A stretch of DNA of 64,000 nt from Azoarcus sp. Aa7 (GTDB lineage Bacteria > Pseudomonadota > Gammaproteobacteria > Burkholderiales > Rhodocyclaceae), in contig NZ_QVLR01000107.1 of the NCBI RefSeq assembly GCF_014822185.1, positions 62,001-126,000 of the forward strand, given 5' to 3'. The notes under the pieces are model-generated. The model was given only the letters and a program-made list of their open reading frames with translations, was not told where the DNA came from and made no database searches. Of the stretch, positions 29,877-43,381 are shown one piece after another (position 1 is the first letter of the stretch; every line of letters starts with the position of its first letter). Position numbers and translations under genes: made by a program.

Positions 29877-29877
29877 A

Positions 29878-31107
29878 ATGCCGCTCTCAGACGTTGCAAT
29901 CCGCACCGCGAAACCCGGCCCGAAGCCGCTCAAGCTCTCGGATGCTGGCGGCTTGTACCTGCTGCTGAATCCATCGGGCGCGAAGTGGTGGCGCCTCGAT
30001 TACCGCTTCGGCGGAAAGCGCAAGACGCTGTCCATGGGCGTCTATCCTGATGTGACCCTGAAGCTTGCTCGCGAGCGTCGCGACGAGGCCCGTAGGCGGA
30101 TTGCCGACGGTATCGACCCTGGGGAGCACCGCAAGGCGACGAAGAAGGCGCGCGCCGAAGTCGCCGCGAACAGCTTCGAGGCGGTGGCGCGCGAGTGGTA
30201 TGCGCGTCAGGCGACGGTGTTGAAGGACAGCACGAAGGACAAGCTGCTGCGCCGCCTGGAAGTGGATGTGCTGCCCTACATTGGCGCCCGCCCGGTTTCG
30301 GAGCTCGCTGCGCCCGATCTGCTGGCGATCATCAAGCGTATCGAAGGGCGCGGGGCCTTCGACATCGCCAAGCGCATGCACAACGCCTGCGGGCGCATCT
30401 TCCGCTACGCGGTCGCGCACGGCCTGTGCGCTCGCGACCCGTCACGCGACATCGAACTGCGCGACGTGCTGCAACCGGTCGCGATCCGACACCATGCGAG
30501 CCTGACGAACCCGAAGGACGTTGGCGGGCTGCTGCGTGCGATCGACGGCTTTACCGGTGCCTTCACCACGCGTTGCGCGCTCCAGCTCGCGCCGCTGATG
30601 TTCGTTCGGCCGGGCGAGTTGCGACACGCGGAATGGTCGGAATTCGACTTCGACAAGAGCGAATGGCGCATTCCTGCCGAGAAAATGAAGATGGAGGAAC
30701 AGCACATCGTTCCGCTGTCGCGTCAGGCCGTGGCTGTCCTGCGTGAGATCCAGCACCTGACCCGGGCAGGGCGGTACGTGTTCCCCTCAGAGCGCGGGGG
30801 CGGCCGGCCGATGAGCGAGAACACCGTGAACGCGGCCTTGCGGCGCATGGGATACACGAGCAACGAGATGACCGGGCATGGGTTTCGCTCGATGGCGTCG
30901 ACGTTGCTGCACGAACTCGGGTATCCGCACCAGGTCATTGAACGCCAACTCGCGCACGGCGAGCGCAACCAAGTCGCGGCAGCATACAACTTCGCAGAGT
31001 ACCTGCCCGAGCGCAGGGTGATGATGCAGCAGTGGGCCGACTATCTCGACAAGCTCAAGAAAGGGGCGGACGTGATCTCGCTCGACAAGGGCAACGCCGC
31101 CGCCTGA
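29878..31107 (+). CDS. int: Tyrosine recombinase integrase, P4-type
   Basis: The 409-aa protein should catalyse integration and excision at the tRNA-Leu att site. It has an N-terminal arm-binding DUF4102-type domain (LSDAGGLYLLLNPSGAKWWRL and GVYPDVTLKLARERRDEAR, about 20-75), a SAM-like core-binding domain (about 100-190), and the catalytic domain with Arg in RPGELRHAEW, the His region HIVPLS, HGFRS, the LAHGERN His and the Tyr nucleophile in AAAYNFAEYLPER. It begins 178 bp after the tRNA, the standard place for a tRNA-site integrase. It looks intact. Confidence 0.95.
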   Translation: MPLSDVAIRTAKPGPKPLKLSDAGGLYLLLNPSGAKWWRLDYRFGGKRKTLSMGVYPDVTLKLARERRDEARRRIADGIDPGEHRKATKKARAEVAANSFEAVAREWYARQATVLKDSTKDKLLRRLEVDVLPYIGARPVSELAAPDLLAIIKRIEGRGAFDIAKRMHNACGRIFRYAVAHGLCARDPSRDIELRDVLQPVAIRHHASLTNPKDVGGLLRAIDGFTGAFTTRCALQLAPLMFVRPGELRHAEWSEFDFDKSEWRIPAEKMKMEEQHIVPLSRQAVAVLREIQHLTRAGRYVFPSERGGGRPMSENTVNAALRRMGYTSNEMTGHGFRSMASTLLHELGYPHQVIERQLAHGERNQVAAAYNFAEYLPERRVMMQQWADYLDKLKKGADVISLDKGNAAA

Positions 31108-31189
31108 CGGGCTCAGGCAAAGCGGGCCGAACGGTGCGGGAACACCGATCGGCCCTGACCACAACCCGATCTGCAAAGGAGATCGAATC

Positions 31190-31924
31190 ATGGCTGACCT
31201 CGATTCTAGACCAGTCTCATCCGTCCGGGATTTCACGCCTGCTCGCCCCGCGTTTCCCTCGCTTGCGAATGCGAACGTGTGGAGCTCCGGCCGCATCAGT
31301 TTCACCATTCAGACGGCCAAAGGCGAAATCCACGTCGAAACATGGGCGCAACGCGAATGGCGCCTACAAGGTAGCGCCGAGTCTCTGGATGACTTCGGGG
31401 CAATCAGTGTCGAATGGCTGCCCGGACGGCGCGGAAACGGCAGATTTAGACAAACCGTCGCCTTCGCACCTGACGGCCGCATCTTCCTTGGCTCGTGGAA
31501 AGGAGGCACGCCGCCAATGCCGCACATCGCGATCGCGAAAAACAGCGGTCGCACATTCACCGTCCATATGCCGTTCAACGCCGAAGAGCAGGCGCAGCTC
31601 GATGAACTGAGGCAGCAGAGCGAGCAGCGGCAAACGTGGGAGACAGCTAAAGCCATCCGTCAGGATCGGGACTTCATCGGCGATTGGAAAACGGCCATCT
31701 TGAAGCGGATTGACGAAATGGAAGCGCTGATCGGCGGGAGGCGGTACTTCACTGGCCTCCCTGAAATTGGCCTTCGCGTTCGCGAGCAGAAGCCGATACT
31801 GGCCGCCCTGGCAGAGGCGAAACAACGGGTGGAGTTCTGCTCCCCCCAATACAAGGACGCGATCCGCAAGGACAACGTGTATTCGCTGAACGGCGAGGCC
31901 TACCTCGGAATGGTAGGCGAATAG
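31190..31924 (+). CDS. Unknown accessory protein (244 aa)
   Basis: I do not recognise this protein. It has a strong ribosome binding site (AAAGGAG) before the ATG. The N-terminal half (about 30-130) looks beta-rich, with alternating hydrophobic residues (ISFTIQTAKGEIHVETW; TVAFAPDGRIFLGSW); a helical, Gln/Glu-rich stretch follows at about 130-170, and a final part with one Cys. No signal peptide or membrane segment. It lies 82 bp after the integrase in an A/T-richer part of the element, a typical place for cargo, which could be defence or host-adaptation related; that is only inference. Confidence 0.7.
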   Translation: MADLDSRPVSSVRDFTPARPAFPSLANANVWSSGRISFTIQTAKGEIHVETWAQREWRLQGSAESLDDFGAISVEWLPGRRGNGRFRQTVAFAPDGRIFLGSWKGGTPPMPHIAIAKNSGRTFTVHMPFNAEEQAQLDELRQQSEQRQTWETAKAIRQDRDFIGDWKTAILKRIDEMEALIGGRRYFTGLPEIGLRVREQKPILAALAEAKQRVEFCSPQYKDAIRKDNVYSLNGEAYLGMVGE

Positions 31925-32053
31925 TCACGCCTTCGCCTGGCTCCGACCGGGCACCATTACGCCGCCCCTACCTCGACGGAGGGAAGAGCCGGGACACCCT
32001 GCCCGGCCTGGGGCGGCACCTTCTACCAGGGCTCGCCGCAATGGGTGGGCGAA

Positions 32054-32890
32054 ATGACGAGCGTTGCATCATTCCCGAACTGGCGGGACGCATCGGTATA
32101 CCCCCAAGATTTTGACGACTGGCCGCTCATGAAGTGGGTGTGGGAGTTCTTGCGACGCAATGTCGATTATCAGGACGACTATGCTCGTTACGCCTCTTTG
32201 CCTGCCTACACGGACGATGGGAAGACGGGAAAGCTCCAGGGTACGGCGATTAGGGGGTGGGAACCGATGACCTACCGCCACTCAGATCCGCCTGCGCTGG
32301 CGGGTGAATCAGGAGATGAGTACTTGAATCGCATGGAGGCAGAAGGGTGCGATTTCGCAGAGTCGGCCCTCGGAGATTACCTGGCAGACAAATGGGGAGT
32401 TGACCTGCTTCTCGACCCTGCAAGCCCCGATGCCTGGATTCTTGATGATGGAACGGGGGATGTGTTGAGCCTACTTTATCCGCGCCTCGGGAAGATTCAA
32501 GTTCCGTCTGAACCGGAACTCCTTCACGGGTTTGAAGGGGCGGACAAGTGGAATGAAAGATCAATTCGTTTCGACTTGCGAAGACCCATTGACCGTCAAG
32601 TCGAAGAGGCGCGGCGCATCCTCCTCTTCGAGCGTGACGAAATGCGGAAGCAACGTGAAGTGTCTTGCGTTTCCTCACCGAAACTGCACAAAGGAAAGCT
32701 TCCAGAGTACCTGCGCGCTTTCGACGCAAAGTCGTCTGGCGCCACGGCTCCCGAAATAGCGGAACTGATGTATCCCAACTTGCCGCGCGAACTGCCCCGC
32801 GACGCAGGTATTACTAGAGCCGAGCACGCCATGCGGGCGGGCACACGGTACGTTCAGCACGGATACCTAGACTTGATGCTGTGGGGCTGA
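32054..32890 (+). CDS. DUF6499/DUF2285-like putative DNA-binding regulator
   Basis: About 278 aa. The N-terminus (FPNWRDASVYPQDFDDWPLM, WVWEFLRRN) resembles the transcriptional-regulator-like DUF6499 domain seen in integrative elements. The C-terminus (YLRAFDAKSSGATAPEIAEL, then a region with paired basic residues) resembles DUF2285 helix-turn-helix proteins. The middle has the DLRRP/ARR segment typical of that family. I recognise these by pattern only. The start at 32054 was chosen because conserved sequence begins a few residues later; GTG at 32045 is possible. Its base composition is lower in GC than the replication genes downstream. Confidence 0.6.
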   Translation: MTSVASFPNWRDASVYPQDFDDWPLMKWVWEFLRRNVDYQDDYARYASLPAYTDDGKTGKLQGTAIRGWEPMTYRHSDPPALAGESGDEYLNRMEAEGCDFAESALGDYLADKWGVDLLLDPASPDAWILDDGTGDVLSLLYPRLGKIQVPSEPELLHGFEGADKWNERSIRFDLRRPIDRQVEEARRILLFERDEMRKQREVSCVSSPKLHKGKLPEYLRAFDAKSSGATAPEIAELMYPNLPRELPRDAGITRAEHAMRAGTRYVQHGYLDLMLWG

Positions 32891-32984
32891 GAGAAATCGC
32901 CACCCCTGATTATTCTGGAATACAAGCTCGGTAGAAACCGCGAAATTCAATCCGTCGCAAACCCAACGCAAAGGAACGACGGAC

Positions 32985-33203
32985 ATGGAAAGCGCACATC
33001 TTCCCGACTCAGCCCGGCACTTCGACAACCTGCCTGACTCCGCACGCATGGACATCGCCGCGCTGGTTGCCGTGACCGGCAAGAGCCGCGCGACGGTCTA
33101 TCGCTGGATCGACCGCGGCATCCTGCCGAAGCCCCGGCGCTTTGCCGGCACGACGCAAAACACCTGGAACGTGGGTGAAGTCCGCCGCGCGCTCTCCGCC
33201 TGA
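32985..33203 (+). CDS. AlpA-like helix-turn-helix regulator/excisionase
   Basis: The 72-aa protein has a MerR-like winged helix-turn-helix: MDIAALVAVTGKSRATVYRW, then IDRGILPKPRRFAG and WNVGEVRRAL. This is the AlpA pattern (P4-type and many genomic islands), where the protein activates integrase or acts as recombination directionality factor. An AAAGGA ribosome binding site precedes it. It starts the main block of element genes, so it may control the replication module. Confidence 0.82.
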   Translation: MESAHLPDSARHFDNLPDSARMDIAALVAVTGKSRATVYRWIDRGILPKPRRFAGTTQNTWNVGEVRRALSA

Positions 33204-33218
33204 TCGGAGGTCGCCAGC

Positions 33219-33704
33219 ATGCCCCGCCAAGCAAAACGGGCCGCCCCCGCCAAGGAATCGGCCCGTCCGCAAACCGCCAGCAACGCCGATTCTATCCCCC
33301 CGGCCCCGCTCTATCACCCCCTGACCTGGCGATCGGAGAAGCCCGCAGGCCGGTTCACGGCGAAGGCTGACGCGACCGTCACGGCACCCGATCGCGTGCC
33401 CGCGGCGATGAGGATCGACCCGGCGCTGATCGTCGTGTTCGAGCCGGATGCAGTCGCGCGCCTGCTGCAGCTCCGGGCCGGCGCATCCGTAAGCCTGGCC
33501 GGCATGCTGAAGGTGGGCACGTACCAGGCCAAGGACGGCACCGCGCGCCCGAGTCTCGACCTGCAGGCCGATGAGGTCGCGAGCACGACACCGCGCCCGC
33601 GCAAGGCGAAGGAAAGCCCGCGGCAGGGAGCGACGGCGGCGGCGCAGTCCGACCCCTTCGGCGATCTACCCGGCGCGGGTGACATCGATTGGACGGGGGC
33701 GTGA
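33219..33704 (+). CDS. SSB-like OB-fold protein
   Basis: The 161-aa protein matches the small single-stranded-DNA-binding proteins of genomic islands in its core: AVARLLQLRAGASVSLAGML, then GTYQAKDGTARPSLDLQADEV, the last beta strands of an SSB OB fold. The N-terminal 30 residues are low-complexity and basic. The C-terminal tail is acidic (DPFGDLPGAGDIDW), like SSB tails that recruit partners. It stands between alpA and the RepA-like ATPase, supporting a replication role. The N-terminal half of the OB fold is hard to align, so the family call is moderate. Confidence 0.6.
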   Translation: MPRQAKRAAPAKESARPQTASNADSIPPAPLYHPLTWRSEKPAGRFTAKADATVTAPDRVPAAMRIDPALIVVFEPDAVARLLQLRAGASVSLAGMLKVGTYQAKDGTARPSLDLQADEVASTTPRPRKAKESPRQGATAAAQSDPFGDLPGAGDIDWTGA

Positions 33705-33705
33705 C

Positions 33706-34089
33706 GTGACCCTGACCGACTTTCGATCGCACCCGGCACGTCGACGCGAACCCGCACGCCGGCTCCCGGCATATGGCGCCCAGCTCGCAAGCCGGCTGCG
33801 CGAGGGCTTCGAGCCGGCGCACGGGATCGCGGTATGGATCGATACGCCGCCGAGCCTGCGCGGCATCTGTGCGCCGCTGGCCGTGTTCGCCGACACCGAC
33901 CCGGCCGCGCTCGACTGGAGCCAGTGCCACCGGCGCGACGTGTTCATTGCCCGAGCAGATAGCGTCACGCCCGAGCGCCTGCAGGCCACTGTCGCGGCGA
34001 TCACCGCCGCGAAGCCCCGCCGGCTGCTCTTGCTGCGCGCGAGTCCGCCGTTCTGCACGCTGCTTATACCAGGGAAGGGCGCCCGATGA
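33706..34089 (+). CDS. Unknown protein in the replication module (127 aa)
   Basis: Not recognised. It starts at a GTG one base after the stop of the SSB-like gene and overlaps the RepA-like gene by 4 bp (ATGA), so it is almost certainly translated with them. Visible features are a basic N-terminus, hydrophobic strands (GIAVWIDT; GICAPLAVFAD) and an RRLLLLRASPPF segment. No zinc motif or membrane helix. The placement argues for a part in replication; nothing in the sequence proves it. Confidence 0.65.
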   Translation: MTLTDFRSHPARRREPARRLPAYGAQLASRLREGFEPAHGIAVWIDTPPSLRGICAPLAVFADTDPAALDWSQCHRRDVFIARADSVTPERLQATVAAITAAKPRRLLLLRASPPFCTLLIPGKGAR

Positions 34090-35360
34090 CGGCATGGACC
34101 AAGCCCGCACAGCTGCTGCCCGAGGTGCGGTATCGGCTGCTCACTGCCGAGGACCTGGCGAGCCGCCCGCCGCTGCGCTGGCGTGTGAAGGGCGTGCTGC
34201 CCGAATCGGGCCTTGCGGCGATCTACGGCCCCAGCGGCTGCGGAAAGACCTTCCTGACGCTAGATCTGGCCGGCGCGGTGTCCGATGGCTGCAACTGGTT
34301 CGGCCGGCGTGTCACGCCCTCCAGCGTGTGTTACCTCGCGCTCGAAGGGGAACACGGCATATCGAACCGTGTCCGGGCCTTCCGTGTCCGGAATGGCGCC
34401 GAGCGGCTCGCCTGCGTGCGCTTCATCGCCGCGCCGTTCTCGCTGCTCGACGTGCGCGACGTGCCCGACCTGGCCGCCTCGATCTTGGCTGCGGATGCTG
34501 GCGGGGGAATCGTGATCATCGACACGCTGAACCGCGCCGCACCGGGCGCCGACGAGAACAGCGGGCAGGACATGGGCGTCCTGATCGCCGCAGCGACCGA
34601 GCTGCAGCGCCTTGTCGGCGGGCTCGTGGTGCTCGTGCATCACAGCGGGAAGGATCAGGGCCGCGGCGCTCGTGGGCATTCAAGCCTCATCGCCGCACTG
34701 GATGCAGCAATCGAGGTGACGCGCGACGGCGATCGGCGGGAGTGGAAGGTCGCGAAGGCCAAGGACGGCGAGGATGGACAGGCGCACCCCTTCCGCCTGG
34801 AGGCAATCGAGATCGGCCGCGACGAGGACGGCGACGCCGTAACGAGCTGCGTTGTCGTCGCCGATGACCAGCCGGCGGCACCACGTGTGCCGAAGCTGAC
34901 CGGGGCAACCCGGATCGCGTGGCGTGCGTTCCTCGCGACGGTGGAGGATGACGGCTCGATTCCGGACAGTGCGACGCTCGAGCAGATGGGCGGCCGCGCC
35001 CTATCGCGTGTCGTGTCGGAGGAAGCCTGGCGCGCCCGTGCATATGCTGCCGGTGTGTCGGACGGCACCGACGAGTCTGCAAAGCGGAAGGCCTTCCGGC
35101 GTGCTCGAACGCAGTTGATGGACTTCGGCATGGTTGCCACCTGGAACGGTCTGTACTGGATCGGCCGTGCCGGTTTGCCGCCTACCGGGACACCGGGACA
35201 TAACGGGACAAACGGCCCGACGTGTCCCGCAGGGTACCGGGACATAACGGGACACACCCCTGTAAGGGTGTCCCGGTTGTCCCGCCCGACGTCCGAGCAG
35301 CGGACGGAGGGACCGGGACATCGTGAATCGGAAGACTCCGCCGACGTGGAGGTGTTCTGA
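34086..35360 (+). CDS. RepA-like hexameric helicase ATPase (AAA_25 family)
   Basis: The 424-aa protein has Walker A GPSGCGKTF (about residue 48-56), Walker B IVIIDTLNRAAPG (about 138-150), the HHSGKDQGRGARG sensor region and the GHSSLIAALDAAIEV motif of RSF1010 RepA-type helicases. After about 350 the sequence turns low-complexity (Gly/Pro/Thr/Arg), and the underlying DNA carries the repeated GGGACA motif described separately, so the 3' end seems to serve as a binding region as well as coding. Likely the replicative helicase of the element. Confidence 0.85.
   Translation: MTAWTKPAQLLPEVRYRLLTAEDLASRPPLRWRVKGVLPESGLAAIYGPSGCGKTFLTLDLAGAVSDGCNWFGRRVTPSSVCYLALEGEHGISNRVRAFRVRNGAERLACVRFIAAPFSLLDVRDVPDLAASILAADAGGGIVIIDTLNRAAPGADENSGQDMGVLIAAATELQRLVGGLVVLVHHSGKDQGRGARGHSSLIAALDAAIEVTRDGDRREWKVAKAKDGEDGQAHPFRLEAIEIGRDEDGDAVTSCVVVADDQPAAPRVPKLTGATRIAWRAFLATVEDDGSIPDSATLEQMGGRALSRVVSEEAWRARAYAAGVSDGTDESAKRKAFRRARTQLMDFGMVATWNGLYWIGRAGLPPTGTPGHNGTNGPTCPAGYRDITGHTPVRVSRLSRPTSEQRTEGPGHRESEDSADVEVF
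35187..35320. repeat. Cluster of nine GGGACA/TGTCCC hexamers, candidate iteron origin
   Basis: Inside the 3' end of the RepA-like gene, GGGACA occurs at 35187, 35195, 35205, 35239, 35249 and 35315, and its complement TGTCCC at 35223, 35269 and 35278. Two blocks share the longer unit GGGACATAACGGGACA (35195-35210 and 35239-35254), giving 10-bp spacing. A stem can form at 35249-35274 (GGGA and CACCC pairing with GGGTG and TCCC, with a 2-nt bulge). Repeats of this density at helical spacing next to a replication gene are typical of iterons. Confidence 0.6.
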
Positions 35361-35947
35361 TGGCAATGCGCGGCGATCAACCGTCTGGCGTGTGGCACTT
35401 CACGCTGAAGGGGACAAGGCCCCACCTGCGCAAGGACGGCACTGCAACCGTGCTCGCATGCTGGGAGGGGCGCTGTCGCGTCTGCGGAGCGCCGTTCGAG
35501 GTCACGACGCCTCAACCGGGAGCGCCGGGGTTTGAGCGAACCAAGGCCTTCGGCCGTGTCCATTGCGACGCACACAAGGCAGTCGCGGACGGCTCAGGCG
35601 TGAAGTCGATTCTTGCGGGCCTCGTCGCGGATGGCCTGGCCCTGACGACCGACGATGGCCGCCTGATCGTGGAGCCGGCCGGCAGCATCACCGAGCAGCA
35701 CCGCGCCCTGATCCGGGCGCACAAGGGCGAATTGCTCGACCTGCTCGCGTCGCACGTGGACGACATTGATGTTGCTGGCGTCGGTACCTGCCAACGCTGC
35801 CGCCACATCCGCAGGCCCGGCCTCGTCGTCAATGGCTACTGCGCCGGCCGTGCAGACCTGCCGCTCGCCTACGGCGCCGGCCACCCGCTGCGCCAGCTGC
35901 CGGGGGATGGGGGCGTGTTCTGCTCGAGCTGGGAGGCGCCGCGATGA
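35360..35947 (+). CDS. Zinc-finger/TubC-N-like domain protein
   Basis: 195 aa. The first part has a Cys cluster (CWEGRCRVCGAPFE, later a Cys-Asp-Ala-His). The middle (about 82-128; LAGLVADGLALTTDDGRLIV, then RALIRAHKGELLDLL) resembles the TubC N-terminal docking domain often found in phage and island proteins. The C-terminal part has a second Cys pattern (CQRCRHIRRPGL, GYCAGR, FCSSW). The function of such proteins is unknown. The start overlaps the RepA-like stop by one base. Confidence 0.7.
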   Translation: MAMRGDQPSGVWHFTLKGTRPHLRKDGTATVLACWEGRCRVCGAPFEVTTPQPGAPGFERTKAFGRVHCDAHKAVADGSGVKSILAGLVADGLALTTDDGRLIVEPAGSITEQHRALIRAHKGELLDLLASHVDDIDVAGVGTCQRCRHIRRPGLVVNGYCAGRADLPLAYGAGHPLRQLPGDGGVFCSSWEAPR

Positions 35948-36108
35948 GCGAGCAGACGGTCGGACCACGCCCGGCGCCATGCCGAGTGAATCGTGCACCT
36001 TCGAAGCGCGAAGCTACTACGGGTCCTTGGCAAGGGGTTTCGATTGAGGGTGGTTCGGACCTCATGCATCGGCTGGTTTTCGGCCCCCTTGACCCCCACC
36101 ACCAGTGA
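35944..36108 (+). CDS. Small ORF (54 aa), possible translationally coupled gene
   Basis: ATG at 35944 overlaps the preceding stop (ATGA), the same coupling used elsewhere in the element, and the frame is open to TGA at 36106-36108. The peptide begins MSEQTVGPRPAPCRVNRAP and has no recognisable motif. The coupling is its only positive evidence; no homologue is known to me. Confidence 0.4.
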   Translation: MSEQTVGPRPAPCRVNRAPSKREATTGPWQGVSIEGGSDLMHRLVFGPLDPHHQ

Positions 36109-36121
36109 ATAGGACGGCACC

Positions 36122-36598
36122 ATGACTGCCCCGACCCTTGCCCCTGTGAGCGTGCGCGCCCTCGCGCGAATCACCCGCCTAGACCGCGACTACATCCTGC
36201 GGCGGATCGCCGGTATCGAGCCGGCAGGCAAGCGCGCCGGGCACGCCGTGTTCAACCTGGCGGACGTGCTGCCGGCGCTGTGCCGGCCTGGCACCGCGGG
36301 CGGCGAGGGGCCGGTCGACGTGTCCCTACTGTCGCCAGCAGACCGCCGCCATCACTTCGACGCCGAACTGAAAGCCCTGGAGCTGCGGCGCCGCGCGGGC
36401 GAGCTGTGCGAGCTTGACGAAGTGATGCAGCTCTACGCCACGACGATTGCCGTGTTCGCCGAGCAGATGCGCAGCGTTCCCGACATCCTCGAACGAAAGG
36501 CCGGCATCACGCCGAAGCAGGCCGAAACCGCCGAGGAGGCGATCGACACTCAGCTCGAGGAGCTGCGCGGCCGGCTCATGCGGAGGTTCGGAAAATGA
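36122..36598 (+). CDS. Nu1/DUF1441-like protein, copy 1 (terminase-small-subunit-like)
   Basis: The 158-aa protein begins with a helix-turn-helix (SVRALARITRLDRDYILRRI), then GHAVFNLADVLPALCRPG, and a long helical C-terminal half (about 80-158). This layout resembles the DUF1441 and lambda Nu1-type proteins, whose N-terminal winged helix binds phage cos DNA in small terminase subunits. It has a paralogue at 36789. No large terminase follows. A small regulator with the same DNA-binding domain is a real alternative. Confidence 0.6.
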   Translation: MTAPTLAPVSVRALARITRLDRDYILRRIAGIEPAGKRAGHAVFNLADVLPALCRPGTAGGEGPVDVSLLSPADRRHHFDAELKALELRRRAGELCELDEVMQLYATTIAVFAEQMRSVPDILERKAGITPKQAETAEEAIDTQLEELRGRLMRRFGK

Positions 36599-36792
36599 TC
36601 GACACCATTCGCACCGTGCTCGACGACGCACTGACGCACACCTGTGCCGGGCTGCTCGCCGTCCTCGCTGACCAGCACCAAGCGGGCCGCCTGACCGACG
36701 AACAGCTCGCCGAGGCACAGGCGGCCGTGCGCGAGCACATCGCGGCCGCGCGTGCGGCTGTGGCCCGTGCCCTCGGGGAATATGTCCGATGA
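36595..36792 (+). CDS. Unknown small helical protein (65 aa)
   Basis: Overlaps both neighbours by 4 bp (ATGA), so it is translationally coupled in a three-gene set with the two Nu1-like genes. The sequence is Ala/Glu/Gln-rich and strongly helical, with heptad-like spacing (LADQHQAGRLTDEQLAEAQ). No known motif; possibly a partner of the flanking proteins. Confidence 0.6.
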   Translation: MIDTIRTVLDDALTHTCAGLLAVLADQHQAGRLTDEQLAEAQAAVREHIAAARAAVARALGEYVR

Positions 36793-37289
36793 CCGCCATC
36801 ACGCTGCCAAACCTTTCAGTGCGGGCATTGAGCCGACTTACCCGACTCGATCGCGACCGCCTGAGCCGCGCCCTAGGGGATGCGAAGCCTGCAGGCATGC
36901 GCGGTGGACACCCGGTCTATGCACTCGCCGACGTGCTCCCCCTGCTGTGCCGCCCGGGCATTGCCGACGCAGCCGGCGAGATCGACGCTGACCGCCTCGC
37001 ACCGACCGACCGGCGGGCGTGGTACGACTCCGAGGCGAAGCGCCGCGAACTGCAGGTGCGTGACCGCGAACTGATCCCGGCGACCGAAGTCGGGCAGGTG
37101 ATCGCGACCGCATTCGCAAACATCGCCAGCGAACTGCGCGCCATTGCCGACAACCTGGAGCGCCAAGGCGAGGCGACGCCCGATCAGGCCGCACGGATCG
37201 AACGGCGGATCGACGTTGCGCTCGATGTGCTCGCAGATCGCTTGTCAGGCCTCGCTCCTGATGTGAGCAATGGACGCAAATCCGATTGA
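36789..37289 (+). CDS. Nu1/DUF1441-like protein, copy 2
   Basis: The 166-aa paralogue of the protein at 36122. Shared blocks are SVRALxRxTRLDRD at the N-terminus, then a LADVLPxLCRPG motif, and a long helical rest with similar spacing (ALPxERRxxY, and EAxxDQAxRIExxID in the second half). The gene probably arose by local duplication, with the small 36595 ORF now between the copies. Same functional options as the first copy. Confidence 0.6.
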   Translation: MTAITLPNLSVRALSRLTRLDRDRLSRALGDAKPAGMRGGHPVYALADVLPLLCRPGIADAAGEIDADRLAPTDRRAWYDSEAKRRELQVRDRELIPATEVGQVIATAFANIASELRAIADNLERQGEATPDQAARIERRIDVALDVLADRLSGLAPDVSNGRKSD

Positions 37290-37686
37290 CCGCCTCGCCC
37301 TGGCCGCTGAGCTCCTGCAGCCTGCCGACCCGGAGCTCGCACGGTGGCTTGCCATGGCGATCGATGCTCATGTGCGAGATGGCGAATCCCTCGACCGCGC
37401 ACTCGGGCTCGCCGGGACCCTCGGGCGATCGCCGCGGTTCGAAATCCTGCGCCGAGATCGAAACCACCACCTCGTCCTCGCCCTGGCGCACCTCGGGGGC
37501 GATTACGCCCGCTTGGCCGATGAGGTGGCCCGGTTCGAACTGCGCCTGTGGCCCGCCTGGCGATACCGCACCGAACACGATCCGCTGTGGTCACCGGCGC
37601 GCCGCGCCGTGTTCGCGGCGTTCCGGGTGGGCGTGCCCGTGCCCTGCACGGTTCCCGGTCTGCGAAAGGCGCTCGCCGAAAACTGA
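37270..37686 (+). CDS. Unknown protein (138 aa)
   Basis: Starts 20 bp inside the end of the preceding gene. The sequence is soluble and Arg/Ala-rich, with a WPAWRYRTEHDPLWSPARRA segment and a hydrophobic helix at about 60-75 (HHLVLALAHLGGDY). I do not recognise it. The frame continues without break through a dense operon, which supports coding. Confidence 0.6.
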   Translation: MDANPIDRLALAAELLQPADPELARWLAMAIDAHVRDGESLDRALGLAGTLGRSPRFEILRRDRNHHLVLALAHLGGDYARLADEVARFELRLWPAWRYRTEHDPLWSPARRAVFAAFRVGVPVPCTVPGLRKALAEN

Positions 37687-37756
37687 ACCCCCCGTGTTCC
37701 GTTTGCGCGAGCGGCCCGATGATGGCCCCATGGCAACGCACATGGAGACCACCACA

Positions 37757-38215
37757 GTGGCAAGTTATGACAAACCCAAGCTGATCGGCATGCTGGAGGC
37801 ACGCAATGCCGCCTTCGTGCAGATCCGCGACATCTCCGACCGCTTGCGCGTCGCGCGGGCCTCGGTCGACAAGTGGAAATCGCACATCCGGATCGCTGCC
37901 AGCCAGTTCGGTGCGTCAGCGGTCGGCGTCGATCACCTGCTCGGCCTGCCTCTCGAGGAGGCGCTGCGACTGAGTCAGGAAGAAGTCGAGTCGTACGAAG
38001 TCGAAGAGCGCAACGGCGTCCGGAAGTATCTAACTGGCGTGAATCTGCAGAACTTCCAGTCGTACCTCAATGCCAGGTCCGCGTTGGAGCATCTGCAGCG
38101 CCAGTACGATGCCGCGCAGGCCGACATCGAGGCGCGCTTCGGCATCGTCCCCAAGCTCGTGGAGGCTGTCGAGCGCTGGGGCTTCAAGAATCCGCGAACG
38201 GAGGTGGGGCTGTGA
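37757..38215 (+). CDS. Unknown protein (152 aa)
   Basis: I start at the GTG at 37757 because a GGAG site lies 9 bases upstream (37744-37747); ATG codons at 37730 and 37742 are alternatives in the same frame. The protein is helical, Gln/Glu-rich (ALEHLQRQYDAAQADIEARF), with an acidic middle (SQEEVESYEVEE). Overlaps the next gene at GTGA. Not recognised. Confidence 0.6.
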   Translation: MASYDKPKLIGMLEARNAAFVQIRDISDRLRVARASVDKWKSHIRIAASQFGASAVGVDHLLGLPLEEALRLSQEEVESYEVEERNGVRKYLTGVNLQNFQSYLNARSALEHLQRQYDAAQADIEARFGIVPKLVEAVERWGFKNPRTEVGL

Positions 38216-38919
38216 GCACCAAACTGCACACGGATGTGGAGAAGATCCGCGCCGAGATTGCGCGCGTTCGTGACGAACTCGAATGGCTCGAAAGTGCCCG
38301 CATCCCCCGCGACGAGCTGAAGGCACGGGCCACCGAGCGTATCCGCGCAGCGGCCGAGAGGTTCGACGGGGATCTCGCGCTTCATCAGATGGCATACCCG
38401 CAGGGGTCGCGTGCCGAACTGCTGACGGTCGCTGTGCCGGCCAGCCAGGGCACGGTCAAGAACGTCGAGCTCGCACCGCTTCTGAGCTGGCTGATGGGCG
38501 TCGACACGCTGATCGGGCTCGTGCATGGCAGGATCGACGCCATGGACTACCGCCCCGGCCCGCCGCTGGCCGAGCGCCCCGCCCGCCTGGCCGAGCTGCG
38601 CACAGAGCTGCGCGCGCTCGAGGAGCGCGAAGAGGCGACGATCGTCCGCGCCGAGGCCGATGGTGTCCTCATCCCGCGCCGCATCGACGCTGACCCGGAA
38701 GCGGTGCTCGGCTACAAGCCGAACGGCGAGATGGCAGAAGGAATCAAGTTCGGCAGCGCGCCGCTTGGGCCGCAGGGTGCGATCAACGCCGAACAGCCGA
38801 CTGCCGCCGTCACGGCGCCCGCAGCGCCGGCCTACGCCCGCCACGCAGCCCCCCAATCGATGGGTCCGGCCGCGTCTGCGCGAGCTCCGCTGAACGTCGC
38901 CAGCCGCTTCCGGCGCTGA
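38212..38919 (+). CDS. Unknown protein with coiled coil (235 aa)
   Basis: Starts at the GTG at 38212, overlapping the preceding stop. The N-terminal 60 residues are helical and charged (VEKIRAEIARVRDELEWLES), and a second helical stretch lies at about 125-160 (ARLAELRTELRALEEREEAT). The C-terminal part is a low-complexity Ala/Pro-rich tail ending VASRFRR. No domain recognised. It may be structural or regulatory. Confidence 0.6.
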   Translation: MSTKLHTDVEKIRAEIARVRDELEWLESARIPRDELKARATERIRAAAERFDGDLALHQMAYPQGSRAELLTVAVPASQGTVKNVELAPLLSWLMGVDTLIGLVHGRIDAMDYRPGPPLAERPARLAELRTELRALEEREEATIVRAEADGVLIPRRIDADPEAVLGYKPNGEMAEGIKFGSAPLGPQGAINAEQPTAAVTAPAAPAYARHAAPQSMGPAASARAPLNVASRFRR

Positions 38920-38933
38920 CCATGGAGACGACC

Positions 38934-39299
38934 ATGACTACCACCCACGACCCGTATCGGTCGGAGCGCGAGGAATACACCCGGTGGCTCGCCGACCCGG
39001 GGAACGCCGAAGCAGAGGGTCGGGAGCACATCCAAGCGGCGCTCGACCGCCTTCCGCCCCCACTTGGCGCGGCTGCTGCCGCGGCTGCCCCTGCCGCCGC
39101 TCCGGTCGCCGTCGTTTCGGTCGCGGAGAGCTGGGACCGCGCCTTCGCCGCGGCACAGGCGAACTCGGCGCCGTACGCTGCACCCGTGGCGGCGCATGTT
39201 GCTGCGCAGGGGCTCGGGCAGACCCAGCCTGCCGCAGCCGCAGAAGACCCGCACGGCTGGGACCGGGCATTCGCCCGTGCTGCCTCCGACCGTTCCTGA
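38934..39299 (+). CDS. Unknown Ala-rich protein (121 aa)
   Basis: I start at the ATG at 38934, which has GGAG six bases upstream; the ATG at 38922 is possible. The protein opens TTTHDPYRSEREEYTRWLAD and has an Ala/Pro-rich middle with a repeated WDRAFA motif (SWDRAFAAA at about 59 and GWDRAFARA at about 108). The repeated motif suggests two short linear binding units. Not recognised. Confidence 0.5.
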   Translation: MTTTHDPYRSEREEYTRWLADPGNAEAEGREHIQAALDRLPPPLGAAAAAAAPAAAPVAVVSVAESWDRAFAAAQANSAPYAAPVAAHVAAQGLGQTQPAAAAEDPHGWDRAFARAASDRS

Positions 39300-39312
39300 A
39301 AGCATGAATACG

Positions 39313-39351
39313 CCCCGCGCTGCGAGAGCGGCCGCCCATAGCGGCGCGGGG
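39313..39351. repeat. Inverted repeat in a 188-bp gap
   Basis: CCCCGCGC (39313-39320) pairs with GCGCGGGG (39344-39351), an 8-bp stem with a 23-nt loop. No T-run follows. It could end the upstream transcript or pause it. The gap 39300-39487 also holds a 31-codon ORF (39304-39399) that I do not support. Confidence 0.35.
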
Positions 39352-39487
39352 TTGGTGCTAGACACCATGGGCGGCCACCGGGCGCACACGACGGGCTGAC
39401 GTGTGCGCAAGGCGGGATACCGGGCACTCGGACTGTTGCGACCGAGCGATCAACACCCGCCAACTCTTTCGCCTGGAGATCAGCCGC

Positions 39488-39775
39488 ATGAGTACCGAAC
39501 TGCGCGAACACGGCCGCGAGATCTCCCGCGCGCGGGCATTGATGACCTTGGCGCACGTTGCCGCCTTCGAACGCCTCGACGCATGCCGGCAGCTCATCGC
39601 CCTGGGCGCCCCGCCCGAGGCCTCGCTCGCCGTGCTCGACCAGCTGCGCCCCGACCCCTATCCAGAGCGCGAAGCCGGCATTCAGGCCGAGCGCGGGCGC
39701 ATCCTGGCGATCCTGGACCGTCCCGGCGCGGCGACCGATCCCGCCGAGACGCTGCGGCTGATCGAGGCCGGGTGA
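39488..39775 (+). CDS. Unknown helical protein (95 aa)
   Basis: ATG at 39488 with GGAG upstream. The protein is mainly helical (REHGREISRARALMTLAHVA; PEREAGIQAERGRILAILDR), charged and without Cys or membrane segments. Not recognised. The stop overlaps the start of a 24-codon ORF by one base. Confidence 0.6.
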   Translation: MSTELREHGREISRARALMTLAHVAAFERLDACRQLIALGAPPEASLAVLDQLRPDPYPEREAGIQAERGRILAILDRPGAATDPAETLRLIEAG

Positions 39776-39849
39776 TGAGCGACGAGTACGAGAAACCCAG
39801 CCGCCAGAACCGCCGCCAGAAACGGGGGTGGCAGCGCAAGCGCCAATGA
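39775..39849 (+). CDS. Possible 24-aa Arg-rich micropeptide gene
   Basis: ATG at 39775 shares a base with the preceding stop, and the stop overlaps the next gene at ATGA, so it sits exactly between two coupled genes. The peptide is very basic (PSRQNRRQKRGWQRKRQ), as in RNA-binding peptides. The size is below what can be proven by sequence; it may only be a spacer that carries ribosomes to the next start. Confidence 0.35.
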   Translation: MSDEYEKPSRQNRRQKRGWQRKRQ

Positions 39850-40163
39850 CCCGCCTGTGCCCCTGCTGCGGATTCCCCGCGCAGCCGGCGCTCATATCCT
39901 TCGGCCGCTTCAACGACAAGGCTCTCGTGATGGGCTTCTGCCGGCGCTGCGTCGCCGCCAACGAACGCCTGCCGCTCTCGACCGAGCAGAAGCGAACGAA
40001 CGCAGCTGCCGCACGCGCAGCGGCAAATCCGGGTCGCTACTTCGCTGCGATCCTGCCCGACCTGGGAGCAGCGCAGCTTGCGGCCGGGCTGCTCGCGCAT
40101 CCAGTGCATGCTGAAGACGCTGCGCGCGCCCTCGGGTGGATAGATGAGAAATCCCGTGTCTGA
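39846..40163 (+). CDS. Zinc-ribbon protein (105 aa)
   Basis: The protein begins MTRLCPCCGFP and has a second pair CRRC about 25 residues later, so a four-Cys zinc ribbon is likely. The rest is helical and Ala-rich, ending HAEDAARALGWIDEKSRV. A related end (VDDAARALRWA) is found as a remnant at about 41.1 kb. Start ATG 39846 overlaps the preceding stop. Function unknown. Confidence 0.65.
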   Translation: MTRLCPCCGFPAQPALISFGRFNDKALVMGFCRRCVAANERLPLSTEQKRTNAAAARAAANPGRYFAAILPDLGAAQLAAGLLAHPVHAEDAARALGWIDEKSRV

Positions 40164-40169
40164 CTGTTT

Positions 40170-40199
40170 TTGCAATCGGTTGCAATCGGTTGCAATCGG
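40170..40199 (+). repeat. Three tandem copies of TTGCAATCGG
   Basis: Three exact 10-bp units follow the zinc-ribbon gene directly. The 10-bp period equals about one helical turn, so a protein could bind all three on one face of the DNA. They could be operators or a second iteron-like site. Confidence 0.8.
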
Positions 40200-40280
40200 C
40201 GCGCGCTTGATCCGGTGGGGCCAGCGAGGCGAGCCCTCAGTGATCCGGATAACGCCTTGTTAGAAGGTGACATTTGCTCG

Positions 40281-40324
40281 TGCGTAAGTGCAACAGTGGT
40301 TGCGCTGCGGAAAACTCTTACGCA
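40281..40324. repeat. Nested inverted repeat
   Basis: TGCGTAAG (40281-40288) pairs with CTTACGCA (40317-40324), and inside it GCAAC (40290-40294) pairs with GTTGC (40299-40303) around a 4-nt loop. The structure lies between the tandem repeats and the next gene and may be a protein- or strand-specific signal. Confidence 0.5.
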
Positions 40325-40341
40325 TACTTAACATCAAACAA

Positions 40342-40366
40342 AAGCCGCCAACCGAAGCGGCTTTTT
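40342..40366 (+). terminator. Rho-independent terminator
   Basis: AAGCCGC (40342-40348) pairs with GCGGCTT (40357-40363), with an 8-nt loop, and a T-run ending at 40366. It would end the long element operon before the last two genes, which therefore may have their own promoter. Confidence 0.7.
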
Positions 40367-40388
40367 GTACAAGAACTCGGGAGAAGTC

Positions 40389-40583
40389 ATGCAAACGAAG
40401 CGTAACCTCATCACGCGCGATATGGTCGTGCGGGCGAACGAGGCAATGGTGAAGAACCGCACCGCGAACGTTGCAGGCCTGCCTACTAAGGTCGTCGCTG
40501 TTATCCGCGAGACCAAGGTTACCCGCGAGGAAATGAACCGCGCGTTCGCCGAAGCACGTCGCGCAGTCGAGGCCGACGCCTGA
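40389..40583 (+). CDS. Unknown small basic protein (64 aa)
   Basis: ATG at 40389 with GGAG eight bases upstream. The protein is basic with a pattern MQTKRNLITRDMVVRANEAM and TKVTREEMNRAF, helical, no Cys. Lies downstream of a terminator and 4 bp before the next gene, so these two form a separate unit. Not recognised; small regulators and antitoxins have such a profile, but there is no specific evidence. Confidence 0.55.
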   Translation: MQTKRNLITRDMVVRANEAMVKNRTANVAGLPTKVVAVIRETKVTREEMNRAFAEARRAVEADA

Positions 40584-40587
40584 CCTT

Positions 40588-41112
40588 ATGGCAGAGGGCC
40601 TGCCGCAGACACCTCAATACAGCTGGATTTACAAGGATCTCGTCGAGGACGAAGGCGATATCATCGGCGCCATTGCCTATTCGATCTACAAGTCGCGAAA
40701 GATTGAATATATCCGGCAGTTTGAAGATGAGCACGGGCGGTCCCCGAACGATGACGAACTCGCGGAGTTCAATCGCGCTGCGAAGCTGCCTGGGCAGCTC
40801 GAGGATTACAGGGACAAGGCCGAGCGCTACATCGATGAGTTCCTCGAAGCCGTCCTCGCGGAACGAATTCGCGTAGCCGAGCAGGAACTGCTGCAGTCTC
40901 GATTCATCAAGGAAATTCGCCCTAAATGGTGGCGTGGCATCGTGGACAACGTCGTGGCGGCGGTACTTACGTCGGCTCTGACGGTGGTGCTGCTCATCTT
41001 CCTCTGGGTGCAGGCGGTCGGAACCGATCGGTTGATGTCTGATATCCTGAATCATTATTTCCCCCGGTCGGATAAGTCCGCTGAGATCAGCGGACATCCA
41101 TCCGTGCGTTGA
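40588..41112 (+). CDS. Unknown protein with one C-terminal transmembrane helix (174 aa)
   Basis: The soluble N-terminal 115 residues are acidic and helical (DEHGRSPNDDELAEFNRAA), followed by a single transmembrane segment at about 121-143 (VAAVLTSALTVVLLIFLWVQA) and a short tail. There is no signal peptide, so it is probably tail-anchored in the inner membrane. With the 64-aa gene it forms a two-gene set at the end of the element, a frequent location for cargo such as toxin-antitoxin or defence pairs. Function unknown. Confidence 0.65.
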   Translation: MAEGLPQTPQYSWIYKDLVEDEGDIIGAIAYSIYKSRKIEYIRQFEDEHGRSPNDDELAEFNRAAKLPGQLEDYRDKAERYIDEFLEAVLAERIRVAEQELLQSRFIKEIRPKWWRGIVDNVVAAVLTSALTVVLLIFLWVQAVGTDRLMSDILNHYFPRSDKSAEISGHPSVR

Positions 41113-41293
41113 CGACGCTGCCCGCGCCCTTAGGTGGGCCGGGGGGAGTTCTGCGTGCGCATCGGCTTGCCAGCACTCCAGCGCGGCAGCTCGCATGAGT
41201 CGAGATTACGGGCGCAGGCGCGGAGATTGGTGCAGCGCAAGGCCGATCCATTCTGCCGCCACACCGACGGCCTGCCGGCTCTATCAAGGCTGA
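41096..41293 (+). pseudogene. Remnant similar to the C-terminus of the 39846 zinc-ribbon gene
   Basis: Bases 41108-41139 match 40110-40141 at 25 of 32 positions, and the differences are mostly at third positions, so both once coded for protein (VDDAARALRWA and AEDAARALGWI). The frame runs on to a stop at 41291-41293 without recognisable sequence. This is a frayed copy of the end of that gene family. The rest of the 418-bp gap (41113-41530) holds the arm-like sites and attR, and I see no other gene in it. Confidence 0.35.
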
Positions 41294-41354
41294 ACCTCGA
41301 AGTGCTGGAACTGCTCCGAGTGACCTTCATTGGCGCACGAATCGGGTGCTTGTC

Positions 41355-41413
41355 ACGGTAAAATTGTCATACGGCCGCAAACTCGAAGGGACCTACGGTA
41401 ACTCTGACGGTAA
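41355..41413. promoter_or_regulatory. Candidate integrase arm-type sites, right side
   Basis: ACGGTAA occurs at 41355-41361, 41395-41401 and 41407-41413; the last two are 12 bp apart. The motif is shared with TGACGGTAAC and related sites near the integrase. They lie within about 130 bp of attR, where arm sites of a P4-type integrase would be expected. Confidence 0.45.
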
Positions 41414-41471
41414 GCGGAAAAATCGAATCGCCTATGCTGCTTGTGGGTGCTGGTGTTGATGGGTTTTTGGT

Positions 41472-41484
41472 AGTCCCGTTCCCG
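41472..41484 (+). repeat. attR core
   Basis: AGTCCCGTTCCCG matches the core in tRNA-Leu. The sequence continues CACCA, one G short of the GCACCA at the tRNA, so this displaced tRNA end has lost a base. Confidence 0.78.
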
Positions 41485-41530
41485 CACCACGCGCCAACGG
41501 GCATGCCTTTGCCCCAGTCCGGAAGTTCAC

Positions 41531-41992
41531 GTGATCGTTCTCAATCTCAGCTGCGACCATGAGCACCTGTTCGAGGGCTGGTTTGCCTCGTCGGCGGCCT
41601 ATGACGAGCAGCGCGAGCGGGGATTGGTGTCCTGCCCGGTGTGCGCATCGACCACGATTTCGCGGCGCCCCAGCGCGCCGTATGTGAACACGGGGGCGTC
41701 TGCCCCGGTTCCGGAGAGAAAATCCAGCTTGCCGGCCGGTGCCGACGCGGCGCCAGCTGCTTCGGTGGCGCCGGACGCCAATGTGCTTGCGGCGGCGATG
41801 GCGATGCTGCGCCGTCTCGGTCGGGAGTCGGAGGACGTGGGCGATCGCTTCGCCGACGAAGCGCGCCGCATCCATCATGGCGATAGCGAGGCGCGCAATA
41901 TCCGCGGCCGTGCGACGCGCGATGACGTCAGCGAGCTGGTGGACGAAGGCATCGCTGTACTGCCCTTACCTGCGGACGAGGACCTGCACTGA
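41531..41992 (+). CDS. DUF1178 family protein
   Basis: The 153-aa protein has the family start IVLNLSCDHEHLFEGWF and a two-Cys knuckle (SCPVCASTTISRRPSAP), with a Ser/Ala-rich linker and a helical C-terminal part (RFADEARRIHHGDSEARNIR) that ends with the typical DDVSELVDEGIAVLPLP. The family is common in alpha- and betaproteobacteria, has unknown function, and may bind zinc. GTG start. It is the first chromosomal gene beyond attR. Confidence 0.85.
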   Translation: MIVLNLSCDHEHLFEGWFASSAAYDEQRERGLVSCPVCASTTISRRPSAPYVNTGASAPVPERKSSLPAGADAAPAASVAPDANVLAAAMAMLRRLGRESEDVGDRFADEARRIHHGDSEARNIRGRATRDDVSELVDEGIAVLPLPADEDLH

Positions 41993-42019
41993 GGGCAGCG
42001 TCTGCGCGTCGGCTGGTCG

Positions 42020-43234
42020 TCAGCAGCGTGCCTGGATCAGAGGAATCCACATTTCGTCGGGCGTGAGCCCGCCGTGAACGCCGATCATCGCGTGTTCCTG
42101 TTCGCCCGGAACATGGTCGCGAATCGTCCAGCCCGGTTCCATCAGTAGCGCATGAGTTCCGATGCGCTCTTGCAGTCGCCGATGAGGTTTGCCCGGACCG
42201 AAGACGCCGAGGCCGATCAAGTCGTCCGAACGCGCGGCGATCGCTTTTCCTGTTAGATACTCGCGTGCCAGCAGCTCGAAATCGCGTTCCGCTCCGCGGC
42301 GCACGGAGCAAAAAGCGGCACGCCGTTCGCCGAACAGCGGGGCTGCCAGCATGGTTTGCAGTCCGGGCAGGGTGGCCAGATCGATCACGCGCTCCGGCGG
42401 CGAGTCGATGAAGCCGTGATCGGCCGTGAGGACGATGTCGGTACCGCTCCCGTGCAGTCGTTCGAGGAGCTGCCCGAAGGCCGCGTCGATGCGCTCGAAG
42501 TGAGTGATGACCTCCTTCGAGTTGCAGCCGTAGGCGTGGCTGAGGCCGTCGAAGGTCGGGTAGTAGGCATGCACGAGGACGGGGTCGCTTCCGCTCTCCC
42601 TGATCGCCCCGGCGATTGTGTCGATCATTCCCTGCAGACCCTTGTAGCCCAGGGTGCTTGCTCCGCGGCTGTGACGGCGCGAGTAGGGTGTGAATGCCAG
42701 TTCACGGGGCGAGACGAAGATCGCAGGACGCTTGCGGCGCTGGAAGAGTGTGCGATAGGCGAAGAGCCGGGGCACGGCCAGCGGGCCCCGCAGGGGGGCG
42801 CCGCCGCGCCGGATGGCTGGCAGCGGTGCGATGACGCCGCCGAAGCGCCGGTCGTGGATGAACCACCCCGTCAGGCCATGGCATGCGGGTGCGAGACCCG
42901 TCATCGTCGTCGTGACGGCACTTGCGGTGGTGCTCGGAAATACGGAGGTGAGGCGGCCCGTCCGGTGAGCGAGGAGTGCTCCGCTGGCACTGGTGCGCTG
43001 CAGGAACATGTCGCCAAGGCCGTCGATGAGGATGAAGACGAGCTTGCGCGGGGCGCTCTCCGTGCCAAGGGGTGCGGACGGTCCGGGTGCGTGCCAGGGG
43101 CGGCCATCGAGATAAGTCCCCACGCTGCGCGCCAGCCCGAACAGGCCGCCGTCGCGATAGTCGGGAAGCACGGCATTCTGCGGCAACTCGATGCGTGGCC
43201 GATCGGAGGGCGCTCGTCGCCGGGAGGGGGACAT
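42020..43234 (-). CDS. Alkaline-phosphatase-superfamily protein (type I phosphodiesterase/nucleotide pyrophosphatase)
   Basis: 404 aa. The metal and nucleophile region is VFILIDGLGDMF followed by SVFPSTTASAVTTTMTG (Thr nucleophile region), the second metal site is in LTADHGFID, and a third ligand is in IGVHGGLTPDEMWIPL. These match phosphodiesterase/phosphopentomutase-like enzymes. No signal peptide is evident, so it is probably cytoplasmic. The substrate is unknown. It lies downstream of the tRNA cluster on the same strand, and a terminator separates them. Confidence 0.82.
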   Translation of the reverse strand: MSPSRRRAPSDRPRIELPQNAVLPDYRDGGLFGLARSVGTYLDGRPWHAPGPSAPLGTESAPRKLVFILIDGLGDMFLQRTSASGALLAHRTGRLTSVFPSTTASAVTTTMTGLAPACHGLTGWFIHDRRFGGVIAPLPAIRRGGAPLRGPLAVPRLFAYRTLFQRRKRPAIFVSPRELAFTPYSRRHSRGASTLGYKGLQGMIDTIAGAIRESGSDPVLVHAYYPTFDGLSHAYGCNSKEVITHFERIDAAFGQLLERLHGSGTDIVLTADHGFIDSPPERVIDLATLPGLQTMLAAPLFGERRAAFCSVRRGAERDFELLAREYLTGKAIAARSDDLIGLGVFGPGKPHRRLQERIGTHALLMEPGWTIRDHVPGEQEHAMIGVHGGLTPDEMWIPLIQARC

Positions 43235-43253
43235 GAAGATGGGCGGCAGAAAG

Positions 43254-43287
43254 ACAAAAAGGGAAGGTGCATCGGCACCTTCCCTTT
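43254..43287 (-). terminator. Terminator of the tRNA-Gly/Cys/Gly operon
   Basis: A perfect stem of ten bases (GGGAAGGTGC 43261-43270 / GCACCTTCCC 43275-43284), extended by AAA/TTT, with a 4-nt loop. On the minus strand it is followed by TTTTTGTCTTT. Confidence 0.85.
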
Positions 43288-43296
43288 GTCAATTAC

Positions 43297-43372: not shown

Positions 43373-43381
43373 GTGTACTTC

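Follow-up and report, generated by a model that had tools for sequence, protein, structure and literature searches.

The window analysed here is a stretch of 64,000 nt from Azoarcus sp. Aa7. It contains an island of about 11.79 kb (approximately 29,701–41,489), inserted at the 3′ end of a tRNA-Leu gene, that is very probably an integrated phage satellite of the type of the Gram-negative phage-inducible chromosomal islands (PICIs), redirecting the packaging of a helper phage. Intact integration and replication genes, an iteron cluster and two homologues of the phage small terminase (TerS) are all present on the island. This reading would place in the Rhodocyclaceae a phage satellite whose ends are defined and whose insertion site is mapped in its unoccupied state; a literature search of limited coverage found no satellite paper on the Rhodocyclales or Betaproteobacteria, in line with the remark in a first-pass annotation of this DNA that such elements seem little described in the group. 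Throughout, unprefixed coordinates are window positions and L-numbers denote fetched loci.

The ends of the island were set by comparison with relatives in which the site is unoccupied. Across the genus 17 genomes were searched, and in six of the 12 loci fetched (L102–L107) the left flank with tRNA-Leu is contiguous with the flank on the DUF1178 side. In L103, window 28,406–29,700 corresponds to positions 1–1,295 and window 41,472–47,999 to positions 1,277–7,803, the overlap of the two alignments giving the att core. This core is present in both alignments for five of the six loci, the sixth (L107) having a 28-base gap between them; among the other loci, L108 has no DUF1178 gene within the 10 kb taken and L109–L113 are arranged differently. 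The alignments show site-specific insertion in tRNA-Leu. An exact-repeat search missed the att pair because the attR core lacks one G, and composition does not mark the island, since its G+C (0.653) is close to that of the rest of the window (0.656). No match to the island DNA was found among plasmid and phage records by megablast. The first-pass annotation had placed the element at 32,985–40,163; the parts it listed all lie inside the island, but that interval is too narrow, with the integrase (29,878–31,107) and two genes to the right of 40,163 falling outside it.

Twenty open reading frames (ORFs), comprising the 19 of the island and the chromosomal DUF1178 gene, were scanned with Pfam and PHROGs. 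The island ORFs are open and tightly packed. The integrase, RepA-like helicase, possible iteron origin and small-terminase-like proteins named in the first-pass annotation are all borne out, as is its statement that structural genes and a large terminase are lacking: the 19 island ORFs gave no hit to a family of large terminases, portals or capsids, about half of them having no informative match. PADLOC gave no match for the ten island proteins scanned. The features are as follows.

29,616–29,700, plus strand: tRNA-Leu(taa), the insertion target (ARAGORN; empty site in relatives)
29,682–29,700, plus strand: attL core, AGTCCCGTTCCCGGCACCA (overlap of both alignments to the empty site)
29,878–31,107, plus strand: tyrosine integrase (PF13356, PF22022, PF00589; PHROG_1, 5.5e-63)
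31,190–31,924, plus strand: gene without a Pfam or PHROG match (ORF)
32,045–32,890, plus strand: putative regulator with PF20109 and PF10074 (2.7e-7 and 3.7e-7, both above cut-off)
32,985–33,203, plus strand: AlpA-like helix-turn-helix regulator, weak match (PHROG_66, 1.3e-5; Pfam AlpA 18.5 bits, below the cut-off of 21)
33,219–33,704, plus strand: protein resembling single-stranded DNA-binding protein (SSB), weak match (PHROG_44, 2e-5; Pfam SSB E 0.017, below cut-off)
33,706–34,089, plus strand: gene with a GTG start (ORF; the longer ORF was scanned without a match)
34,086–35,360, plus strand: RepA-type replication helicase, rep (AAA_25, 1.4e-37; PHROG_906, 3.5e-39)
35,186–35,320, no strand: iteron cluster of nine CGGGACA, putative replication origin (repeat count against shuffles)
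35,360–35,947, plus strand: protein with a TubC_N-like stretch, just under cut-off (25.4 bits against 26)
36,122–36,598, plus strand: small terminase TerS1, DUF1441 (PF07278, 2.2e-32; PHROG_141, 3.5e-31)
36,595–36,792, plus strand: 65-residue ORF between the TerS genes (start/stop overlaps with both; no Pfam match)
36,789–37,289, plus strand: small terminase TerS2, DUF1441 (PF07278, 6.5e-35; PHROG_141, 2e-32)
37,270–37,686, plus strand: module protein 37270 (conserved in L063, weaker in L064)
37,730–38,215, plus strand: module protein 37730 (conserved in L063, weaker in L064)
38,212–38,919, plus strand: module protein 38212, predicted all-helical (common to nine other loci)
38,922–39,299, plus strand: protein with two WDRAFA motifs (motif reading)
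39,488–39,775, plus strand: protein 39488 (start read inside ORF 39,401–39,775)
39,828–40,163, plus strand: protein 39828 (ORF; no match)
40,170–40,199, no strand: three perfect tandem copies of TTGCAATCGG (repeat search)
40,365–40,583, plus strand: protein 40365 (PHROG_29725, 4e-4, a family of no assigned function)
40,588–41,112, plus strand: phage-type protein 40588 (PHROG_22648, 3.4e-22, a family of no assigned function)
41,472–41,489, plus strand: attR core, one G fewer than attL (alignments to the empty site in relatives)

TerS1 and TerS2 are 49% identical, and both match the small-terminase profile across nearly their full length, the C-terminal part included. When viral contigs were searched with the TerS alignment, at least 542 relatives were confirmed; among the best 80, which were used for neighbourhood counts, 76 have a GpA large terminase within 2.5 kb of TerS, and in two of the four exceptions (L125 and L144) the contig ends within 0.9 kb of it. 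The host genome itself gave no match to the GpA family, a point in favour of the satellite reading. The first-pass annotation had allowed that these proteins might turn out to be unrelated transcription regulators with no relatives near terminase genes, and both the profile family and the viral neighbourhoods speak otherwise, in support of its PICI-like satellite reading. DUF1441 is rare in related genomes, appearing above cut-off in one of 399 genomes sampled from the order (the host itself), six of 395 from the family and seven of 398 from the phylum; a scan of genome contigs with both TerS, and a viral scan with TerS2 alone, confirmed no relatives. The check by structure prediction that the annotation proposed gave a divided answer. 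The AlphaFold model of TerS2 (predicted local distance difference test, pLDDT, 77.4; predicted template modelling score, pTM, 0.36) has a winged-helix-like N-terminus and a helical C-terminus, and its matches include the small terminases 7lwr (Z 6.0), 6hn7 (5.9), 7lw0 (5.8) and 6ejq (5.2), mixed with MerR/RacA and helical chains and all below 8. The modelled fold is compatible with a small terminase but does not decide the matter, because the N-terminal winged helix resembles small terminases and MerR/RacA-type proteins alike. Searched against PDB sequences, the TerS profile gave nine weak matches, of which five are small terminases and the top-scoring one is not.

In a tree of 46 TerS sequences, TerS1 and TerS2 fall in a clade of nine rows (support 99/100) that also holds the TerS of islands L064, L205/L212 and L215, of loci L206/L213 and L207/L214, where a lambda-type portal lies downstream, and of the viral contigs L124 and L126. 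TerS1 and TerS2 are not placed as sisters in it, and a plain tandem duplication was set aside for this reason; the program warns of long branches in the clade (L064, L205, L206, L207), and a single origin of the two is possible. The two halves of the pair differ in how far they have diverged. Identity is 31/47 (66%) in the N-terminal half and 37/87 (43%) in the C-terminal half (Fisher p 0.012 for the window pair alone, in a comparison made post hoc, after the alignment had been seen). Among 968 other TerS pairs at 40–58% identity, which are not independent of one another, the median half difference is -0.06 and only L064–L126 shows an equal contrast. N-terminal third codon positions of TerS1 and TerS2 agree at 0.37–0.39, that is, they are saturated, so recent gene conversion does not explain the N-terminal similarity, and the pair has kept its protein sequence despite that saturation. 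By analogy with lambda Nu1, we take the N-terminus to be the DNA-binding part and the C-terminus the part that docks on the motor. On a tentative reading, which we regard as rather unlikely, TerS1 and TerS2 would be adapters for packaging that recognise the same DNA site and couple to two motors, the island being loaded by two different helper-phage motors, and the module at 37,270–38,919 would belong to a family of satellite capsid-assembly factors found also beside capsid genes in capsid-bearing islands. If this were so, one satellite could use two helpers through one packaging site, offering a test of how satellites widen their helper range.

The replication module has its own candidate origin. 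There are six forward and three reverse copies of CGGGACA at 35,186–35,320, inside the 3′ end of rep, and the GGGACA core reaches nine copies per 200 bp as against at most three in 500 two-base block shuffles. Repeated heptamers that differ in sequence from these are found close to the 3′ end of rep in L065, L066, L067 and L073 (4–7 copies, raw counts without significance); nothing striking is seen there in L079 and L215. At E 0.001 the window rep has matches in 39 of 199 genomes of the family, many of which are weak. Eleven regions with rep relatives were fetched (L065–L075), and PHROGs was run on ten proteins drawn from five of these. L065, which comes from the same genome as the window (contig C14, 46000–64000), holds at 4703–11462, near tRNA-Met, an integrase, a rep (58%) and an HK97-type capsid (PHROG_10, 1.5e-15) that, from a reading of the ORFs, seems to stand alone. 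L066 combines a capsid (3.4e-43) with a weak TerS match (0.002), L073 has a capsid (PHROG_617, 1.5e-42) and L071 a tail-completion protein.

Downstream of the TerS genes, protein 38212 served as the marker gene that led to further islands. Its model contains only helices; two helical parts are predicted with confidence, and the tail is disordered (pLDDT 75.5, pTM 0.56). A PDB profile search gave only weak matches, mostly to unrelated chains; PHROGs has no family for the window protein, two of its families each matching one of eight members at E ~0.002. Two scans of viral contigs confirmed no relative, a plasmid search found none, and the genes for 37270, 37730 and 38212 are absent at E 1e-3 from all 80 viral TerS contigs. 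Relatives were found in four of 199 family genomes and four of 349 order genomes (the host's own genome counted in both), at four loci in a scan of genome contigs and at one further locus through the DUF1441 search. Nine loci share the gene: L063, L064, L078, L079, L085, L086, L088 (a match at the end of a short contig), L212 and, weakly, L087; a very weak match is seen in L062. Eight of the nine are islands with an integrase, several of which hold incomplete sets of head or packaging genes, and going by organism names these islands presumably fall in the Alpha-, Beta- and Gammaproteobacteria. A tblastn search with the window integrase located one in L063, L078, L079, L085, L086 and L088, and in pieces in L212.

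Closest in layout is L063 (a Sulfuritalea metagenome-assembled genome, MAG, on the same contig as L076), where homologues of 37270, 37730 and 38212 stand in window order with an AlpA homologue, a Nu1-type TerS (3.8e-13), a GpA large terminase (TerL, 3.7e-73) and a tail-type protein (PHROG_1924, 9.2e-48). L064 (an Azoarcus MAG, on the same contig as L077) has an integrase by reading, a DUF1441 TerS (7.9e-27), a tail-fibre-like protein (PHROG_6320, 3.1e-13) and the 38212 gene; L212 has an integrase, TerS and the 38212 gene. The simplest relative, L215, carries an integrase, an AlpA-like protein and a long primase-helicase (both by reading) and TerS; chromosomal genes flank it on either side, and tRNA-Pro lies to its right. 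Other islands bear head genes. In L079 (Plasticicumulans lactativorans) an S49 protease, gpD (5.2e-37) and capsid E (6.2e-90) are present, gpD being separated from the capsid by a short ORF and the 38212 homologue; in five annotated phage records (L114, L115, L116, L119, L123) the capsid directly follows the head decoration gene, so the two intervening ORFs of L079 depart from that order. In L085 the 38212 homologue is immediately followed by a capsid gene (3.9e-55), and a TerS (PHROG_57, 1.7e-16) is present as well. L086 has a capsid E (1.5e-92), together with a protein whose similarity is confined to part of the C-terminal region of PHROG_53. The same region alone is matched by a protein of L078 (Brucella pseudintermedia), and it would correspond to the scaffold part of the head protease; in L078 the 38212-type domain forms the C-terminal part of a longer protein (9563–10492). 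A tblastn search for portal, protease and capsid in the sister islands was not used, since it is too insensitive to show absence: in L079 it failed to pick up the gpD and capsid E that Pfam recognises. Because 38212 adjoins capsid or terminase genes, a head-assembly role is suggested by analogy. The islands differ in their partial head sets (TerS only, TerS with TerL, capsid, or a scaffold-like protein), which makes piecemeal hijacking of helper heads open to testing. Tape-measure-like genes were seen near satellite-type genes in L212 (3655–6780) and L078 (13470–15704), both by reading, and in L067 (11351–13411; weak similarity in PHROGs); these three loci may be tail-altering satellites or defective prophages.

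Integration and the identity of the genes are observed, and from them we infer each later step of the most likely life cycle. An incoming or induced helper phage with a GpA-type terminase would switch on the AlpA-like activator, and the integrase would excise the island. The RepA helicase and SSB-like protein would replicate it from the iterons, and TerS1 and TerS2 would bind a site on its DNA and dock on the helper's GpA-type large terminase. Island DNA would then fill helper heads, and helper heads and tails would carry it, the 38212 protein and its neighbours probably adjusting head assembly. A candidate helper/satellite pair is found in genome G983, where the island-like L212 coexists with L216, a GpA large terminase locus (30% over 640 residues) that at 6765–10310 combines the terminase with a partial homologue of the window protein 35360.

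Gram-negative PICIs such as EcCICFT073 and PmCI172 resemble the island in having an integrase at one end, terS in some cases and no structural genes; they also have an AlpA-type regulator and a replication module with an origin, to which the weak AlpA-like match and the RepA helicase with its iterons may correspond (PMC6092414). The AlpA-type activator of EcCICFT073 is reported to be triggered by a phage. Most of the testable features of this group are present in the island, among them the att site with its integrase, terS and the lack of recognised structural genes or a large terminase. The island differs in its RepA-type helicase and separate SSB-like protein with no primase domain found, its two terS genes, its helical module and its Rhodocyclaceae-type host (PMC6092414). 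The Staphylococcus aureus pathogenicity islands (SaPIs) of the pac type that carry TerS and CpmAB redirect packaging with a small terminase of their own, as proposed here; their TerS is unlike the DUF1441/Nu1-like kind of the island (PMC12409344). The same source gives CpmB and Rcm (SaPIpT1028) as helical capsid redirectors of satellites, and 38212, itself without a PDB or viral fold match, may be likened to them as a candidate helical capsid redirector, by analogy and without direct comparison (PMC12409344). Ccm of SaPIbov5 is described as a capsid homologue acting as a capsid redirector (PMC5052747), a precedent for the capsid genes of L065, L066, L073 and L085; the island itself has no recognised capsid gene. 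Capsid-forming PICIs carry capsid, protease, portal and both terminases (PMC10690885, PMC11389934), whereas only TerS is recognised in the island, which is not a capsid-forming PICI; the 38212 gene does adjoin capsid genes in L079, L085 and L086, a likeness to that group. New here are the twin TerS, whose N-terminal halves are alike and whose C-terminal halves have diverged, and the common helical protein 38212.

Several points weigh against the satellite reading. The first-pass annotation had suggested looking for a helper prophage in the same genome, and none was found in the host draft genome (107 contigs) with the four families searched for and those only (GpA PF05876, capsid E PF03864, TerL_nuclease PF20441 and portal PF04860); no packaging site was identified on the island. 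The AlpA-type regulator and SSB-like protein of that annotation are present, but both matches are weak, and no primase domain was recognised in Rep by Pfam or PHROGs. Two viral contigs, L137 and L183, have 8 kb of room downstream of TerS in which no GpA terminase was found. For 38212, fold searches of viral and PDB libraries gave no match at E 0.001, and its weak homologue in L087, a Mu-like locus by our reading, means that the protein is not exclusive to satellites. Tail-type genes occur in L078 and L212 (by reading) and, weakly, in L067. The failure to find a helper or a packaging site, the tail-type genes and the Mu-like locus also count in favour of a decayed prophage, now immobile, that kept integration, replication and TerS and lost its head and tail genes. 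We consider this very unlikely given that the ORFs are open and tightly packed, that the att cores are preserved at both ends and relatives have the site unoccupied, that the same head-less module recurs in L063, L064 and L212 with different integrases and replication genes, and that the protein sequence of the TerS pair has been conserved although third codon positions are saturated.

The same module bears on whether the element is a reduced descendant of a capsid-forming satellite, its own capsid swapped for helper capsids and the 38212 module left over from a head operon. The capsid genes beside 38212 in L079, L085 and L086, and those held by the rep relatives L065, L066 and L073, fit such a history, but no capsid, portal or protease trace is recognised in the window element, no tree shows the direction of change, and the capsid-less L063, L064 and L212 keep 38212, which argues for a present role; this descent is therefore unlikely. 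It is extremely unlikely that the element is a mobilizable or plain genomic island moving by conjugation, with the Nu1-like proteins acting as DNA-binding regulators. That view draws on the likeness of the winged-helix N-terminus to MerR/RacA proteins and on the PF20109/PF10074 protein, of a kind that occurs in other mobile islands; it is opposed by the near full-length fit of both proteins to the small-terminase profile, C-terminal part included, and by the large terminase beside TerS in 76 of the 80 best viral relatives. Relaxase genes in homologous elements were to have told against a satellite: Pfam found no relaxase family in the 20 scanned proteins of the window, which stands against conjugation, while the proteins of the relatives were not systematically scanned for relaxases. 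The satellite reading is the one we retain.

Some smaller observations concern the right part of the island and its surroundings. The TTGCAATCGG triple repeat stands out among the five intergenic stretches examined and sits between two gene groups, with a terminator-like hairpin and T run, found by reading, near 40,345 on its 3′ side; it could be a site for TerS, an integrase-arm site or a regulator site. A WDRAFA-type motif, W[DG]x[AV]F, lies near protein C-termini in three islands (window 38,922–39,299, L064 7664–7927 and the S49 protease of L079, 8049–9296). As a general scaffold motif it was rejected, being absent from ten of ten phage S49 proteases (L114–L123) and from the scaffold-like proteins of L078 and L086, and it is kept as a lead only. 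In the window, pgsA lies at 29 kb and tRNA-Gly/tRNA-Cys-type tRNAs at 43.3–43.6 kb; a rep and capsid island in L073 (3475–13246, genome G911) likewise adjoins pgsA and tRNA-Gly/tRNA-Cys, and the neighbourhood common to the two is a possible integration hotspot.

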